NCBI GenBank assembly: GCA_001829315.1
Contig: MIAY01000015.1
Coordinates: 1-44,268, forward strand
DNA: 44,268 nucleotides
Direction: 5' to 3'
From: Spirochaetes bacterium GWE1_32_154
GTDB lineage: Bacteria; Spirochaetota; GWE2-31-10
Shown in pieces: positions 98 through 18,421 of this stretch. The number at the start of each line of letters is the position of its first letter. The stretch's first letter is position 1. Under the pieces are notes generated by a model, which saw only the letters and a program-made list of their open reading frames with translations, was not told the DNA's origin and ran no database searches. The translations under genes and the position numbers were made by a program.

Positions 98-195
98 AGT
101 TTGTACATTTTTTTTAGAATAATAGCTTCAGTGTCGTTGGTTTTTGAAAGTAAAAAACTAAAATCCTGATTAGATATGTCATTCATATATTCCAT
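98..195 (-). pseudogene. 5' fragment of a small gene interrupted by the IS
   Basis: A minus-strand ATG at 195 has a good ribosome binding site (AGGAG, 205-209) and opens 33 codons beginning MEYMNDISNQDFSFLLSK before reaching the IS end at 97. The frame continues into the IS and stops at 19-21, giving a 58-residue chimera. The native gene is therefore truncated. Nothing in the fragment suggests a function. It is the last recognisable gene on the minus-strand side of the cassette array. Confidence 0.5.
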
Positions 196-2213: not shown

Positions 2214-2420
2214 CTTCGCCGGCACGGAAGCCGGCTCTTCGAAAAACCACCAGTCGCGACCAATTACAACTAACGTTTTGCTCGTATCTGACGTTTTTTT
2301 CTTTGCCGAAAAGGCGGAGCGACAGCGAATGCCAGGCAAAGAAAAAAATGTGGCGTAGCCCAAGAACGGTACTCCGTTCGCAGCAGATACGAGCTGTTAC
2401 TTGGAGTTGGTCGCTGTAAT
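2214..2420 (-). repeat. Junction element B (attC-like recombination site)
   Basis: The architecture matches element A. The end box of cassette 2 is CAAGTAAC (2396-2403, with outer GCGACCAA at 2407-2414). Stem 2384-2394/2280-2290 (GCTCGTATCTG with its complement) encloses GAACGG/CCGTTC and a long ...CTTTGCC/GGCAAAG... stem (about 2291-2306 with 2335-2351). The start box of cassette 3 is GTTAGTT (2268-2274), and the TTCCGT-loop hairpin lies at about 2219-2236. The two outer boxes of this junction do not match each other perfectly, but each matches the far end of its own cassette. Confidence 0.72.
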
Positions 2421-2430
2421 ATCAAAAACA

Positions 2431-2446
2431 CCGGCAAGGATGCCGG
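2431..2446 (-). terminator. Hairpin plus T-run after the 2449-3027 gene
   Basis: On the minus strand CCGGC ATCCTT GCCGG is followed by TGTTTTTG, immediately after the stop codon. It could be a rho-independent terminator. It also carries the conserved cassette-end loop, so it may serve both purposes. Confidence 0.6.
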
Positions 2447-2448
2447 AA

Positions 2449-3027
2449 TTATATTCTTTTCTTTAACTTTTCAATACGTTTTTCCCAATCTCCAGACCAT
2501 CCTTCATTGTAAGCTATTTGACATAATTCTAATGATTCACTGATTTTTTTTTCTTTCTCATAAATTATAGCTAATTGTTCAAATCCAATATGTCTAGGTA
2601 AATTGCAAGAAGGTTGTTCATTCTTAAAGTAAATACTAGCTTCTTTAGATATTTCAATTTGTTTTTTACAATATTCAATTGCCTTTATATACGAATTATT
2701 ATTTTCTCTATCTTTATAATAGAATTCGATTAAAAAAAGATAGTAAAAATGTTTATCATTAATAGAAATATCAGAATCGTATAATTCTTCAGCTTTATAA
2801 ATAAATTTTCTTGCTATTTCTATGTCTTTTGTTGTTAAGAACCAAGTACTAAGATTTGCTAAGTAATAACAAGAACTTCGATTCAAAATGAAATTATTTC
2901 CCTCGATTAAATTTATTCCATATTTTTTTACAATATAACTCATCTCATTTTTATCAAATGTTGAAAACCACCAATCTGTAAGCTGAAAATGTCCAATTAA
3001 ACCTTCAATCTTCTTTTTAAATAACAT
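2449..3027 (-). CDS. TPR-like cassette protein, 192 aa
   Basis: The protein opens with HFQLTDWWFSTFDKNEMSYIV, a pattern I associate with a family of short bacterial tetratricopeptide-like proteins. Helix pairs follow, with TPR-like spacing (ARKFIYKAEELYDS; IEYCKKQIEISKEA; LAIIYEKEKKISESLELCQI), pointing to a protein-protein interaction scaffold. There is no signal peptide. It lies 13 bases downstream of the FN3 lipoprotein gene on the same strand, and both sit between junctions B and C. Cassette 2 is therefore a two-gene cassette, which is uncommon in integrons. Its partner and process are unknown. Confidence 0.7.
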   Translation of the reverse strand: MLFKKKIEGLIGHFQLTDWWFSTFDKNEMSYIVKKYGINLIEGNNFILNRSSCYYLANLSTWFLTTKDIEIARKFIYKAEELYDSDISINDKHFYYLFLIEFYYKDRENNNSYIKAIEYCKKQIEISKEASIYFKNEQPSCNLPRHIGFEQLAIIYEKEKKISESLELCQIAYNEGWSGDWEKRIEKLKKRI

Positions 3028-3040
3028 TTATTTTCCTTTA

Positions 3041-3721
3041 TCATTCATAAACATTTGTAAAAGTAACCTTAGTTTCATACCTATCGTACGCATCCAAACT
3101 ATTTAAATCATAAAAAGTAATACTATATGCAGCTTTACTACCGATAGGAAAATCTTCCATACTTAATGGATATGTAAAGTTAGTATCAACAATAATATCG
3201 TTTTTGTACATCGTATAAGTAACTTTAACAAAATTTGCAACGCAATTTCCAGTACTTTCAACTATTCCTGTAACTTTTAGAAAATTTAATGAGGTTAGTT
3301 CAAATTTCTCATCAGAAAGTTTAAACGAAGCATTTGGAATACTAACAGAAACTATATTTGAAAAATCACTTTCTATATCCAAATTGACAGAGGTTAATTT
3401 ATAATAATAAGCTTTACCAGCTTCAACATTCGTATCATAAGATGATGTAAAATATGTATATTCAAGGAATTGAAAATATTTATCATCATTCACAGATCTA
3501 TAAATATTATATTTACTAGCAACAGAAACACTATCCCACGATAAATTTACATCACCCCCATAAATACCACTACCAATTTCTGCTTTTAGATTTGAAGGTG
3601 CAGTAAGACTATCTTCAGATTTAGTAGTTTCCTTCTCTGCATCAGTTGTATCCAAAAAACCACATGAAGTAATGATAAGTAAAAATGAAAAAAGAACAAT
3701 AAAACGATTAAAATAACTCAT
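3041..3721 (-). CDS. Lipoprotein with a fibronectin type III domain, 226 aa
   Basis: Residues 1-20 form a signal peptide ending in a lipobox (LLIITSC, Cys20), so the protein should be membrane-anchored. Residues about 41-130 (TAPSNLKAEI...VNLSWDSV...YNIYRSVND...YYYKLTSVN...SDFSNIVSVSI) are a typical FN3 domain. The remaining 95 residues are beta-rich and resemble the small FxLYD-type domain of bacterial surface proteins (LNFLKVTGIVESTG, then IGSKAAYSITFYD). AGGAG precedes the ATG. It is the first gene of cassette 2. An adhesion or ligand-binding role is inferred from the domains only. Confidence 0.78.
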   Translation of the reverse strand: MSYFNRFIVLFSFLLIITSCGFLDTTDAEKETTKSEDSLTAPSNLKAEIGSGIYGGDVNLSWDSVSVASKYNIYRSVNDDKYFQFLEYTYFTSSYDTNVEAGKAYYYKLTSVNLDIESDFSNIVSVSIPNASFKLSDEKFELTSLNFLKVTGIVESTGNCVANFVKVTYTMYKNDIIVDTNFTYPLSMEDFPIGSKAAYSITFYDLNSLDAYDRYETKVTFTNVYE

Positions 3722-3849
3722 AAGATCTCCTAAAAAAATAATTTTCGTAACTTTACCAGAAACTGTGTGAAATATAGCTTCACATTAAATAGTATTTTCA
3801 CAAAACAAACAAAATATAATTATTTATAAAAGGAATTCTGTCAGTCTAT

Positions 3850-4060
3850 CTTCGCCGGCACGGAAGCCGGCTCTTCGAAAAACCACCAGTCGCGACCAAT
3901 TACAAGTAACGTCTCGGCCGTATCTCGACGTTTTTCTCTTTGCCGAAAAAGACGGAGCGACAGCGGATGTCAGGCAAAGAGAAAAATGTGGCGAAGCCCA
4001 AGAACGGTACTCCGTTCGCAGCAGATACGGGCTGTTATCGGCTGGGGCTGGGCTTTGTAA
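3850..4060 (-). repeat. Junction element C (attC-like recombination site)
   Basis: The end box of cassette 1 is GCCGATAAC (4034-4042), with the outer GCCCAGCCC tract to 4057. Stem 4023-4032/3916-3925 pairs with one mismatch and encloses the same inner hairpins as copy B. The start box of cassette 2 is GTTACTTG (3903-3910), with outer TTGGTCGC (3892-3899) and a TTCCGT-loop hairpin at about 3856-3871. The two outer boxes of this junction share only GTTA, while each is complementary to the far end of its own cassette. Confidence 0.72.
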
Positions 4061-4072
4061 TACCAAAGAACT

Positions 4073-4088
4073 GCGACACGGATGTCGC
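4073..4088 (-). other. Cassette-end hairpin, loop ATCCGT
   Basis: On the minus strand GCGAC ATCCGT GTCGC lies 12 bases after the stop of the 4101-6056 gene. The T-rich tail is weak (AGTTCTTT), so it may not terminate transcription. The loop is shared with the other cassette ends. Confidence 0.5.
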
Positions 4089-4100
4089 TTTTTAAAATTC

Positions 4101-6056
4101 TTACTTCTTTTTTCTTCGTGTTCTTGGTAAAATTAATTTATCAATTCGTTGAGATATTCTTATCATGTGATTGTTATAATATTCTAATGGAACAAAATAA
4201 AACGAATTGATGTCTATCTGATCATAATCATTAAAATAATATCTTTGATTTACAGTTTGAATTTGTCTTATTTTTCTATTAAGATAATTAATATATTTTT
4301 TTGATAAATTATGCTTTAATATGATATAAACATTTTTTTTAATAATACTATTAATTCTTTTATTATTAACAATATTTGAAATAAACAGTCCTTTTGATGA
4401 AGATACTAACAAGTCTTCGCTGTAATTATTGTATTTTATTATAGCTAAAAACATTTTTAGAATGGAGTATAACATTTTTTCAATTTTTTTATAATCAGAA
4501 CACTTTTGGAAAAAAGAAAAAATTGTTAAATAAATTTTTATGAATACTTTAATATATTCATTTTTTTCTTGTGGGGTAAAATACCATGCCCAGTAAATAT
4601 TAAAGAAAGAAGAAAATGAAATATCATCCAATAATAAATAAAGTTCAAATTCTATTTTATATAGTTGATCAAATATTCCTGAAACATGAGTTCCACCAAG
4701 GAAAATACGATTTATAAGAATATCTATTATTTCGTTTATTATTTTTATTCTGTTTAAGTTATTTATAATTTTAGTTTTGTCATCCTCCTGCATGACTAAT
4801 AAATTAAAAATAACCTTTCCCAATGTTTTGTCATTGTCATAGTTATTAGAAAAATGTGTTGTATAACTATCAAAAACTAGCATAGGGGCTAATAATTTAC
4901 GAGCATCGATGCTTTTCTGTATTTCAAATATTAATGATAAGATATCAAATTTGTTATGGTATATAGGATTAGATAAAATATTATAAGAAATAATATTTAT
5001 TGTCTTGTTAATCATAGATTTATTTAATGAATTATCTTTTGCATATATACTTTCTTTAATATTTGATAATCGAATAATAATAAATTCAATAGAATCTGAC
5101 AAATCAATTTTTTGTATAAATATATTTAAAATTGTTGAAAATTTATTTAGGTCATCAAAATATCTTTCAGGTTCTGTTAGTATGTTATCAAAAAAGAAAC
5201 TACAGAGTAATTTTATATATTCATTGTAATTAATATTGTGTTTTAAGTATTTTGTGTGTTTGTCAAACAAAGTATTTAAAAATAAATCATAGTAGATAAT
5301 ATTTAATGAACTACTTTTTAATTTTTGAATTATCTTTTTGGAGTTATCTAAGAAGTCAAGATAAAAATTATCGATATTAATATAATAATCATCAATATAT
5401 GAAAAATACATATCTAAACAATTAAAAAGACACATAACCCCCTTTTCATATGAGCCATATTGAGATTTTTCAATATTGTAATTGATTACTTCATATATAT
5501 TTTGGAATTTATAAATAAATACAACATGATACTGTTTAAAAATAGTACCTTTTTTAAAATTATCGGGTGCATCTTGAGACGAAATTGCATTTATTATGGT
5601 TTGCTTAAGTGTGCTATATTGATATAGTGGGTTCTTATTTAGTTTGCTGGTGGTTTTAATAAGATGTTTAATAGTATTTTGAATATCGTTTTCAATTAAA
5701 GGGCAGCATGTGTCATATATATCTAGTTGTTTTCTTGTTTTATTATAAAAAATATATGTGTTTATTAGTATTAAAACTAATATTAACGCCGAAATATACT
5801 CAAATATCTGATAATTTGGAATAAATATAAGAATTATTATTTGAAAAATACCAAGTATTAAATTAATAAGTAATGAATTATTTAGTTTTTTATTTTTAAT
5901 AATTATTTGATATAAATTACTAGATACTGATTCACTAATTCTTTGAAATGGGATAATTGCAAGAGAAATTAATAAAGCAACTACGGTAATAGATATTGAT
6001 ACGAGTTCAATTATTTTAGAATCACTGTTAATAACATTAAAAATATTCATATACAC
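4101..6056 (-). CDS. Unknown membrane-anchored protein, 651 aa, first cassette
   Basis: Three hydrophobic segments lie near the N-terminus (about residues 18-38, 62-82 and 86-108: SISITVVALLISLAIIPF, LLINLILGIFQIIILIFI, ISALILVLILINTYIF). They are followed by some 540 residues of Asn/Ile/Lys-rich, probably helical cytoplasmic sequence without a motif I recognise. No Walker, nuclease or protease motif is visible. It is very AT-rich even for this window. It occupies the position nearest the recombinase and is bounded by 24-base inverted ends (4034-4057, 6137-6160), so it is the most recently insertable cassette and is unusually large for one. Large membrane-anchored cassette proteins may act in phage defence, but that is speculation. 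Confidence 0.72.
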   Translation of the reverse strand: MYMNIFNVINSDSKIIELVSISITVVALLISLAIIPFQRISESVSSNLYQIIIKNKKLNNSLLINLILGIFQIIILIFIPNYQIFEYISALILVLILINTYIFYNKTRKQLDIYDTCCPLIENDIQNTIKHLIKTTSKLNKNPLYQYSTLKQTIINAISSQDAPDNFKKGTIFKQYHVVFIYKFQNIYEVINYNIEKSQYGSYEKGVMCLFNCLDMYFSYIDDYYINIDNFYLDFLDNSKKIIQKLKSSSLNIIYYDLFLNTLFDKHTKYLKHNINYNEYIKLLCSFFFDNILTEPERYFDDLNKFSTILNIFIQKIDLSDSIEFIIIRLSNIKESIYAKDNSLNKSMINKTINIISYNILSNPIYHNKFDILSLIFEIQKSIDARKLLAPMLVFDSYTTHFSNNYDNDKTLGKVIFNLLVMQEDDKTKIINNLNRIKIINEIIDILINRIFLGGTHVSGIFDQLYKIEFELYLLLDDISFSSFFNIYWAWYFTPQEKNEYIKVFIKIYLTIFSFFQKCSDYKKIEKMLYSILKMFLAIIKYNNYSEDLLVSSSKGLFISNIVNNKRINSIIKKNVYIILKHNLSKKYINYLNRKIRQIQTVNQRYYFNDYDQIDINSFYFVPLEYYNNHMIRISQRIDKLILPRTRRKKK

Positions 6057-6099
6057 CTTTATTTAACAAATAAAGTAACATATTTTTTTTATATATTTT

Positions 6100-6160
6100 G
6101 CCCGCACGGACGCGGGCTCTTCTTACAGGAACCAGCCCAAGCCCAGCCCTTGCCGATAAC
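6100..6160 (-). repeat. Start half of cassette 1 (boundary with attI-like region)
   Basis: In the cassette direction GTTATCGGC (6152-6160) is followed by AAGGGCTGGGCTT, which matches the reverse complement of the cassette's own far end at 4034-4057 at 22 of 24 bases. Then comes GAAGAG and a hairpin GCCCGC GTCCGT GCGGGC (6100-6117). The hairpin corresponds to GCCGGC TTCCGT GCCGGC in the other cassettes, with paired (compensatory) changes. No central palindrome lies on its upstream side, as expected where a cassette abuts an attI. Confidence 0.7.
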
Positions 6161-6504
6161 TCAAAATATGTGTATTTCGCTTTACGCTACATACTATAAT
6201 CTACAATAAATAATTAATCAACACCAAATCATACAAACAGTAATTAATCGCATTATTTCCTCATAACTCTACAATAAACATCAATTTACATAAACCAGAC
6301 AGAATTACACAATATATGACAAATACTCATACAAGGTGAACTTCGCTTTTTGCCCCGCAGTTGTAAGGTAAATCACAAACTACAACACAACACAAAATAA
6401 AAAAATAAAATACAAAAAATATTCAAAAAACCCCGTTGAAAAAACACAAATTCAGCATTTAATAAAAAGAAACCTAACATCCCGCAAAGAAAAGGAATAA
6501 AAAA
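6161..6504. other. Candidate attI/leader region between array and recombinase
   Basis: This is 344 bases without a gene, between the first cassette and the recombinase start. It holds a promoter towards the array (6193-6221) and an imperfect direct repeat about 69 bases apart (6199-6223 and 6268-6290, both with TCTACAATAAA). TTCGCTTT occurs twice, near 6175 and 6344. Directly repeated recombinase binding sites are expected in an attI; whether these are such sites is an inference. No RNA structure was recognised. Confidence 0.45.
6193..6221 (-). promoter_or_regulatory. Candidate cassette promoter (Pc)
   Basis: On the minus strand TTGATT (6216-6221) is followed after 17 bases by TATAGT (6193-6198). 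It points away from the recombinase gene into cassette 1, 33 bases upstream of the GTTA box, which is the position and direction of an integron Pc. Confidence 0.6.
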
Positions 6505-7302
6505 ATGGACAATCATCTCACACAGTTTAATCAATTATTAAAAATAAAAAACTATTCCAGACGAACAATAAGTATCTACACGACAAATCTAAAGCGATTT
6601 CTTGAATATGCAGACAATACCGATTACGCGCCTGAACTACGAATTATCAAATTCCTAAATACAATAGAATCTGAAGAAATAAGACGTAATTCCTATAATG
6701 CAATTCAATTATTCTACAAACTTGTATTAAAAAAATCATGCCCATATATTTTGAAAATGGTAAAAACAAGAAAACGTCTTCCTCAGGTATTAACAAAAAA
6801 AGAAGTAGAATTGATAATTTCTAAAATCACTAATATAAAACATACACTCATGATATCGATGATGTATGGTAGCGGATTACGGGTTAGTGAAGTTGTAAAT
6901 ATCAGAGTCGCTCATGTTGATATTGAAAATTTACTATTAAATATAAAAAATTCAAAAAACAAAAAGGATCGCATAACGCCACTATCACAGAAATTAAAAA
7001 ACGACTTATCTTCTATTATAAATGAAAGATCAGGAAAAGAATTTCTTTTTAAAACAATACAGAATAATAAATATACAATAAGAACTGTTCAAAAAGTTTT
7101 TGAAAATGCTTTTAAAAAGTCAGGTATTACAAAAAACGCGACCTGTCATACTCTAAGACATTCTTTTGCAACCCATCTGCTTGAAAACGGAATCGATATT
7201 CGGTCTATTCAGAAAATACTTGGACATGCCTCAGTAAAAACGACAATGATTTATTTACATGTCGCTGAATGTACTATAAAAAAAGTTGAAAGCCCTTTAT
7301 AA
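6505..7302 (+). CDS. Tyrosine recombinase, integron-integrase-like but without the IntI insert, 265 aa
   Basis: This is a DNA strand-exchange enzyme of the Xer/IntI type. The N-terminal SAM-like core-binding domain spans about residues 1-85 and the catalytic domain 95-265. Catalytic residues are visible: Arg126 in YGSGLRVSE, a Lys near 151-154, His215-x-x-Arg218 in CHTLRHSFATHLL, His241 in LGHASVKTT, and nucleophile Tyr250 in TMIYLHV. The tail KKVESPL resembles that of IntI proteins. The stretch of about 35 residues between boxes I and II that distinguishes IntI (ALxRKYPxA...) is absent, making it 60-70 residues shorter than IntI1. AAAGGA precedes the ATG. It is divergent from the array and is the likely cassette recombinase. 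Confidence 0.85.
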   Translation: MDNHLTQFNQLLKIKNYSRRTISIYTTNLKRFLEYADNTDYAPELRIIKFLNTIESEEIRRNSYNAIQLFYKLVLKKSCPYILKMVKTRKRLPQVLTKKEVELIISKITNIKHTLMISMMYGSGLRVSEVVNIRVAHVDIENLLLNIKNSKNKKDRITPLSQKLKNDLSSIINERSGKEFLFKTIQNNKYTIRTVQKVFENAFKKSGITKNATCHTLRHSFATHLLENGIDIRSIQKILGHASVKTTMIYLHVAECTIKKVESPL

Positions 7303-17862: not shown

Positions 17863-18309
17863 ATGAATAAAAAGGAATTAGCGCCGTTAATAATCGGTAA
17901 ACTACTTAATATTGGCGGGATGTTACAAAAAAAAGGTAATAAGTTACTTCTGCCTTTTAATTTAAATCAACAACAGTTCTCAATACTTTTTTCAATTGAA
18001 CAGAAAAAAAAAGTAAATCAGAAAAATATGATAAATAAACTGGTTTTAGAAAAAGCACACGTATCTAAAGTTGTTAAAAAATTATACAATATGGGTTTGA
18101 TAGACATTGAAACTTCTTCTGAAGATAAACGCTCATCCTGGTTATCGATAACAAAAAAAGGACAAGACACACTGGAAAAATGTAAAGAGTACATAGAAAA
18201 ATGGAATGAAGAGTGGGTAAGTGAGATTGATAAAGATCAACTTTATGTATTACTTGATAGTTTAACAAATCTACAAAATATATTTAAAAACCAGATTGAA
18301 AATAAGTAA
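17863..18309 (+). CDS. MarR-family transcriptional regulator, 148 aa
   Basis: A winged-helix regulator: helix 1-2 region (LAPLIIGKLLNIGGMLQKKGNKLL), DNA-binding helices (LNQQQFSILFSIEQKKKVNQKNMINKLVLEKAHVSKVVKKLYNMGLI), the wing (DIETSSEDKRSSWLSITKKGQDTLEKC) and a C-terminal dimer helix. The DKR motif of the wing is present. I choose the ATG at 17863 (AGGG eight bases upstream) over the in-frame GTG at 17821, which has no binding site. It probably represses the divergent tautomerase gene and itself through the palindrome at 17762-17793. A palindromic repeat follows the stop. Confidence 0.88.
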   Translation: MNKKELAPLIIGKLLNIGGMLQKKGNKLLLPFNLNQQQFSILFSIEQKKKVNQKNMINKLVLEKAHVSKVVKKLYNMGLIDIETSSEDKRSSWLSITKKGQDTLEKCKEYIEKWNEEWVSEIDKDQLYVLLDSLTNLQNIFKNQIENK

Positions 18310-18348
18310 AAATTACAGTCATTATGATACTTTAATTAAATTTATAAT

Positions 18349-18421
18349 GAGACTCATGCAAAAATTCGAGATAAAAAAAGAATACTTTTTTATAAAAAAG
18401 AGTATTTTTGCATGAGGCTCT
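18349..18421. repeat. Palindromic intergenic repeat, copy 3
   Basis: Arms at 18349-18365 (GAGACTCATGCAAAAAT) and 18404-18421 (ATTTTTGCATGAGGCTCT) flank an AT-rich centre. It lies after the marR gene and could end its transcript. This is one of the most complete members of the family. Confidence 0.7.

Follow-up and report, generated by a model that had tools for sequence, protein, structure and literature searches.

Spirochaete genomes carry a distinct, little-noticed relative of integrons, which is integron-like in its anatomy and, by inference, in its working, but has neither the IntI domain nor an extrahelical base, both of them integron-defining. Its cassettes are bounded by long arms that match their own far end. 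The system is described here from the window, i.e. the whole analysed stretch of 44,268 nucleotides of Spirochaetes bacterium GWE1_32_154 (contig MIAY01000015.1; genome G000, 4.03 Mb in 43 contigs), and from related genomes, above all the nearly complete genome of a relative, G057.

Organization of the cassette array

The array of the window lies on the minus strand and consists of an attI-like boundary at 6160, the complete cassettes 1 to 3, and the start of cassette 4. It is adjoined by a tyrosine recombinase gene on the plus strand (6505-7302). Cassette 1 (4034-6160) contains an ORF at 4101-6056 and cassette 2 (2396-3910) contains two ORFs (3041-3721 and 2449-3027), all without family match. 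Cassette 3 (1474-2274) carries a type II toxin-antitoxin (TA) pair, with a toxin of the ParE/RelE family (1545-1823) and a RelB-like antitoxin (1811-1996), the latter assigned by a weak match below the curated cut-off. The start arm of cassette 4 (1342-1360) has the same letters as that of cassette 3, and its far end is outside the window. Palindromic attC-type sites with AAC/GTT boxes lie between the cassettes, three in the window (113-123 b) and at 105 junctions in G057. In the window, the inner attC of cassette 1 (3911-4033, 123 b) has an inner L stem of 8 bp and no extrahelical base; the L stems of cassette 2 (2275-2395, 121 b) and cassette 3 (1361-1473, 113 b) are perfect over 11 and 10 bp, respectively, all three sites being on the minus strand. 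No transposase was matched inside the window cassettes and their ends lie at attC boxes, so that the hallmark of a transposon with terminal inverted repeats, a transposase between the repeats, is not found.

An attI role is inferred for the leader at 6161-6360, to which no strand is assigned. Leaders of similar sequence precede cassettes or relics at G000 C5:~284, C41:~842, and C43:~17970. Those on C43 (L048, ~17960-18420) and C41 (L052, ~840-1190) stand beside decayed 3' ends of recombinase genes and are putative relics of further arrays in the genome. A GC hairpin, AGAGCCCGCGTCCGTGCGGGC with the loop TCCGTG, is located near the start of cassette 1 (6100-6120, minus strand) and recurs at 3854-3874, 2218-2238, and 1304-1324 (one mismatch). 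Nearly all copies in the genome are found at cassette starts, and a related hairpin stands ahead of the end arm. Whether the cassette-start hairpin is a terminator or an RNA element is raised only as a question. A search of Rfam identified no family, its one match being far below the gathering score.

Matching of cassette ends

The original prediction held that the ends of a cassette match each other rather than the neighbouring cassette. For cassette 1 the coordinates of the two arms are correct (end arm 4034-4057 against the inverse of the recombinase-proximal start arm GTTATCGGCAAGGGCTGGGCTTGG at 6137-6160, minus strand), but the count of 22 of 24 has to be lowered to 21 of 24, with mismatches at bases 10, 11, and 23. 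The counts for cassette 2 (17 of 19; end arm 2396-2414, start arm 3892-3910) and for the TA cassette (14 of 19; end arm 1474-1492, start arm 2256-2274) were reproduced, and the flanks of junction C indeed have only the leading GTTA in common, agreeing at 10 of 24 bases overall. The arm scores of cassettes 1 and 2 were 22.2 and 17.2, and the best of 400 dinucleotide shuffles reached 15.7; as none of the shuffles attained either score, chance in AT-rich DNA is ruled out. The end match of the TA cassette, taken alone, is not significant. The preference for the own end over the neighbour stands at junction C and fails at junction B, where the flanks (16/19) agree better than the ends of the TA cassette, a consequence of the near-identical start arms of cassettes 2, 3, and 4. 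For this reason only junction C discriminates within the window. The window by itself is weak evidence, and the larger set from G057 decides.

The G057 array packs more than 100 junctions into about 109 kb (C1:~3456700-3565900; L063, L134, L135, L142-L144). Short cassettes without ORFs are repeated many times in it. The search for junctions relied on the inner attC sequence and made no use of the arms; all seeds, however, derived from junctions first noticed via their arms. In a first pass (55 junctions) the within-cassette identity was 0.62-1.0 at bases 1-18 but 0.00 at base 11, while the within-junction identity equalled that of random pairing. Addition of seeds for two short cassette kinds gave 105 junctions and 64 distinct cassettes in a second pass. 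Own ends agreed at 15 or more of 18 bases in 53 of the 64 distinct cassettes, compared with 10 of the 105 junctions. Since short identical cassettes recur in the array, 8.4% of randomly drawn pairs also reached 15/18. Across the many junctions of a related genome, within-cassette matching is therefore far above within-junction matching, the latter being at the level of random pairing. At the level of sequence, the G057 array confirms and widens the original observation.

Many more cassettes came from other related genomes. The own-end match covers about 18 bases in G057; elsewhere it spans 19-26 bases. In G006, which belongs to the same order as the window genome, the first cassette starts with GTTATCGGCAATACCCATGCCC and ends with the inverse of GTTATCGGCAGTACCCATGCCC (21/22), and the letters of these arms differ from those in the window. 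Complementarity well beyond the usual box, as originally claimed, is thus upheld at a length of about 19-26 bases (18 in G057), though the classical baseline is 9-11 bases and not 7. Perfect complementarity, which the original prediction cites for the circular cassettes of integrons, is never reached here, base 11 being an invariant mismatch.

Arm anatomy and the mismatch at base 11

The arms are built of 10 paired bases, the mismatch at base 11, and 7-15 further paired bases. In 62 of the 64 G057 cassettes, the start arm has A at base 11 and the reverse-complemented end has G, a combination that gives G.T on the bottom strand and, on the top strand, an A.C mismatch. In a scan over a set of loci, 34 of the roughly 38 strong pairs had A/G at base 11; as counted in both orientations, the strong pairs comprised 34 A/G, 36 G/A, and 8 others. 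The arm with A11 is recombinase-proximal at all 18 loci for which coordinates were compared by hand. Pairing in G057 ends sharply after base 18. Bases 13-18 use all four letters, yet are paired in 43-53 of 53 cassettes; these 53 were picked by their score over bases 1-18, and the pass of 55 junctions serves as the unselected check.

These features bear on two other explanations of the arms. They could be extended binding sites, recognized as double-stranded DNA by a Xer-like enzyme with a conventional mode of recombination, in keeping with the Xer/XerA-like length of the enzyme and with the conservation of GTT, G8, and A11. We regard this as improbable, since bases 13-18 have no consensus and only pair, which suits structure rather than the reading of bases, and since the sites sit on long folded palindromes. 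The arms could also be a relic of cassette birth by copying or snap-back, without being a working part. To our knowledge cassette genesis is unexplained, and long inverted ends could be its footprint; the fixed polarity of the mismatch and the sharp end of pairing argue for upkeep instead, so that a mere relic is very improbable.

The recombinase

The recombinase of the window (265 aa) lacks the IntI-specific additional (I2) domain. Its catalytic positions R126, K151/K154, H215, R218, H241, and Y250 are invariant among its relatives. IntI4 aligns with it in two pieces, leaving out the IntI-specific segment, which is present in true IntI (L125, L126) and absent from the window enzyme and its relatives, here called insert-less. 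The match to TIGR02249 (192 bits) is below the cut-off of 265. In a tree of 62 recombinases, Xer proteins, including those of the same genomes, are separate (100/100), so that the window enzyme does not group with XerC/XerD dimer-resolution recombinases. IntI forms one clade (100/100) beside the insert-less group of the window (95/77), with a second insert-less group outside. Placement of IntI inside the insert-less enzymes is favoured by this tree, but the alternative topology, with all insert-less enzymes in one clade, was not rejected (p-AU 0.365). Long-arm arrays with A/G at base 11 are present in both insert-less groups. At 9 of the 18 loci the recombinase gene is divergent and the array leads away from it; all nine are in the tree branch of the window; at the other nine, array and recombinase have the same direction, and all of these are in the other insert-less branch. 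Many insert-less recombinases have an N-terminal extension of about 80-130 residues (L018, L022, L027, and others), which the window enzyme lacks. That the window enzyme acts on the sites of the window is inferred from adjacency.

The original prediction missed further departures from true integrons, in the enzyme and in the attC stem. The extrahelical base on the R''-L'' arm is absent from all three sites of the window and from 54 of 54 sites in G057, and at other insert-less loci the stem is unbulged in 14 of 16 sites. It is present in IntI arrays, namely in 35/35 sites of Vibrio, 17/19 of the Treponema denticola type, and 3/3 of the IntI array that the window genome itself carries on contig C2; the IntI array of G018 has the bulge in 4 of 5 sites. 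The I2 domain reads the extrahelical base of attC (PMC4792948). In the insert-less arrays the domain and its target base are thus absent together, and the long arm is present.

Comparison with integrons and other systems

Like integrons with IntI, the system has cassette arrays, attC-like palindromes, GTT/AAC boxes, a recombinase beside the first cassette, and ends that are complementary across the cassette. It differs from them in having neither the additional domain nor the extrahelical base, and in an own-end match of 18-26 bases with the mismatch at base 11, whereas in IntI integrons the match stops at 7-12 bases. Classical cassettes were reported with 9-11 matching bases (PMC2727003). In the Vibrio superintegron (36 junctions) the match is high to base 9, drops to 0.55 at base 10, and is near random from base 11; it covers 7 bases in the T. 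denticola-type IntI array (23 sites), 7-12 bases in class 1 cassettes, and 8-11 bases in the C2 array of the window genome. Long arms as a property of all integrons are ruled out by the Vibrio, T. denticola-type, and same-genome IntI arrays. One true IntI array is an exception (G018 C77, L133): it has arms of 15-20 bases, without the mismatch at base 11, so that possession of long arms does not by itself go with an insert-less enzyme. This array is possibly an intermediate or a case of convergence. The IntI loci of G064, G130 (C54), G129, and G146 showed no repeated attC by self-comparison, and their missing long arms are therefore uninformative.

The true IntI of the window genome (G000 C2:45444-46364; L125, L131, L132) scores 398.7 bits and has its own ordinary cassettes. 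Two predicted cassette systems coexist in this genome. The presence of this IntI could mean that the window array is an ordinary integron, moved by the C2 enzyme, with the window recombinase incidental. Its array, however, with short matches and bulged sites, is unlike that of the window; at least eight genomes with long-arm arrays (G057, G069, G142, G111, G011, G104, G140, and G116) yielded no IntI by the search used; and at 18 loci the insert-less enzyme is the neighbour of the array, invariably at the end that bears the A11 arm. We consider this reading very improbable.

Folded single-stranded sites without extrahelical bases, recombined by enzymes without an I2 domain, are also known from CTXphi and IMEX, which use the host XerCD (PMC4792948, PMC7790495). 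These elements have no recombinase of their own and no cassette array, whereas the window-type system has a dedicated clade of enzymes apart from Xer (100/100). Also close to the window enzyme are XerA-like proteins of NF040815 ('site-specific tyrosine recombinase/integron integrase') on Bacteroidota plasmids, which are 35-38% identical, lack the insert, and cluster with the insert-less enzymes in the tree; unlike in the window, no long-arm array with a mismatch at base 11 adjoins them at the four loci that were checked. Among 80 relatives on viral contigs, only 16 chance-like pairs were found, one of them with A/G at base 11. The plasmid loci and the viral-contig relatives rule out long arms as a general XerA-like trait. 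Neither insert-less integron enzymes with cassette arrays nor arms beyond 11-12 bases were found described in the searchable literature, most subscription journals and preprints being outside its scope.

Proposed mechanism

The array probably represents a single-strand cassette system without an I2 domain, in which the long arm forms an outer stem that only the circle completes; this mechanism is inferred and is some way from being established, no recombination, circle, or crossover having been observed. In the free circular cassette, the bottom strand would fold into a hairpin, which the recombinase would use for insertion at G^TT, as in integrons. The R box would be extended outwards by a long stem built from the two ends of the cassette itself. 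Insertion would split this stem, the start of the next cassette taking the place of the partner arm, and would thereby act as a ratchet favouring capture over loss. Base 11, as G.T on the bottom and A.C on the top strand, may help to mark strand and polarity, a task that in true integrons falls to the extrahelical base and the I2 helix.

Predicted folding energies, which leave proteins out of account, are -53.9 kcal/mol for the circle and -33.4 for the array site of cassette 1, and -49.7 and -44.3 kcal/mol, respectively, for cassette 2. With its partner arm replaced, the integrated site would usually fold more weakly than the free site. For cassette 3, whose neighbour has an identical arm, the value is -30.7 for circle and array alike, so the ratchet would fail wherever neighbours share arms. 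In G057 the circle was more stable than the array site in 24 of 24 cassettes (mean -13.5 kcal/mol), these cassettes having been picked for matching ends; the bottom strand surpassed the top in stability in every one of the 24, and with only the arms considered it still did so in 23.

The main rival is pairing across the integrated cassette, in which the two ends would pair in single-stranded DNA and unite the crossover points for excision. The identical complementarity does exist in the array, and the arms are a property of the cassette rather than of the junction. In the array, though, 0.3-4 kb separate the partner arms, against about 90-280 b in the circle; the arms are a direct continuation of the attC hairpin's R boxes; and the missing extrahelical base is left unexplained. 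We consider excision pairing unlikely, without dismissing it, and retain the stem of the free circle as the preferred reading.

As to mobility, a long-arm cassette on contig C17 (L075 4112-6206, equal to G000 C17:90111-92205), with DNA methyltransferase-like and putative restriction genes named by eye, interrupts an ATPase-like gene. When its flanks are joined, the frame GLYIYD-RWNWEK crosses the insertion point, with frameshifts later. The cassette is a putative secondary-site insertion outside an array.

Implications for the origin of integrons

The origin of integrons was described as a chicken-and-egg problem, in that it is unclear how the I2 domain was selected without attC sites, or attC sites without the domain (PMC4792948). 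A tentative suggestion, which we think somewhat more apt to be wrong than right, is that the spirochaete arrays are of the lineage that gave rise to integrons. Folded-strand recombination with long self-paired ends would then predate both I2 domain and extrahelical base, and these would later have replaced the long stem in IntI systems. Three traits are linked in the arrays: no insert, no bulge, and a long arm with a fixed mismatch. Searches that require the IntI domain would miss such enzymes, even though the G057 array, about 109 kb long, comprises more than 100 junctions. A natural domain-less enzyme beside attC-like sites lacking the base is the type of system, be it intermediate or sister, by which the question of origin would become testable.
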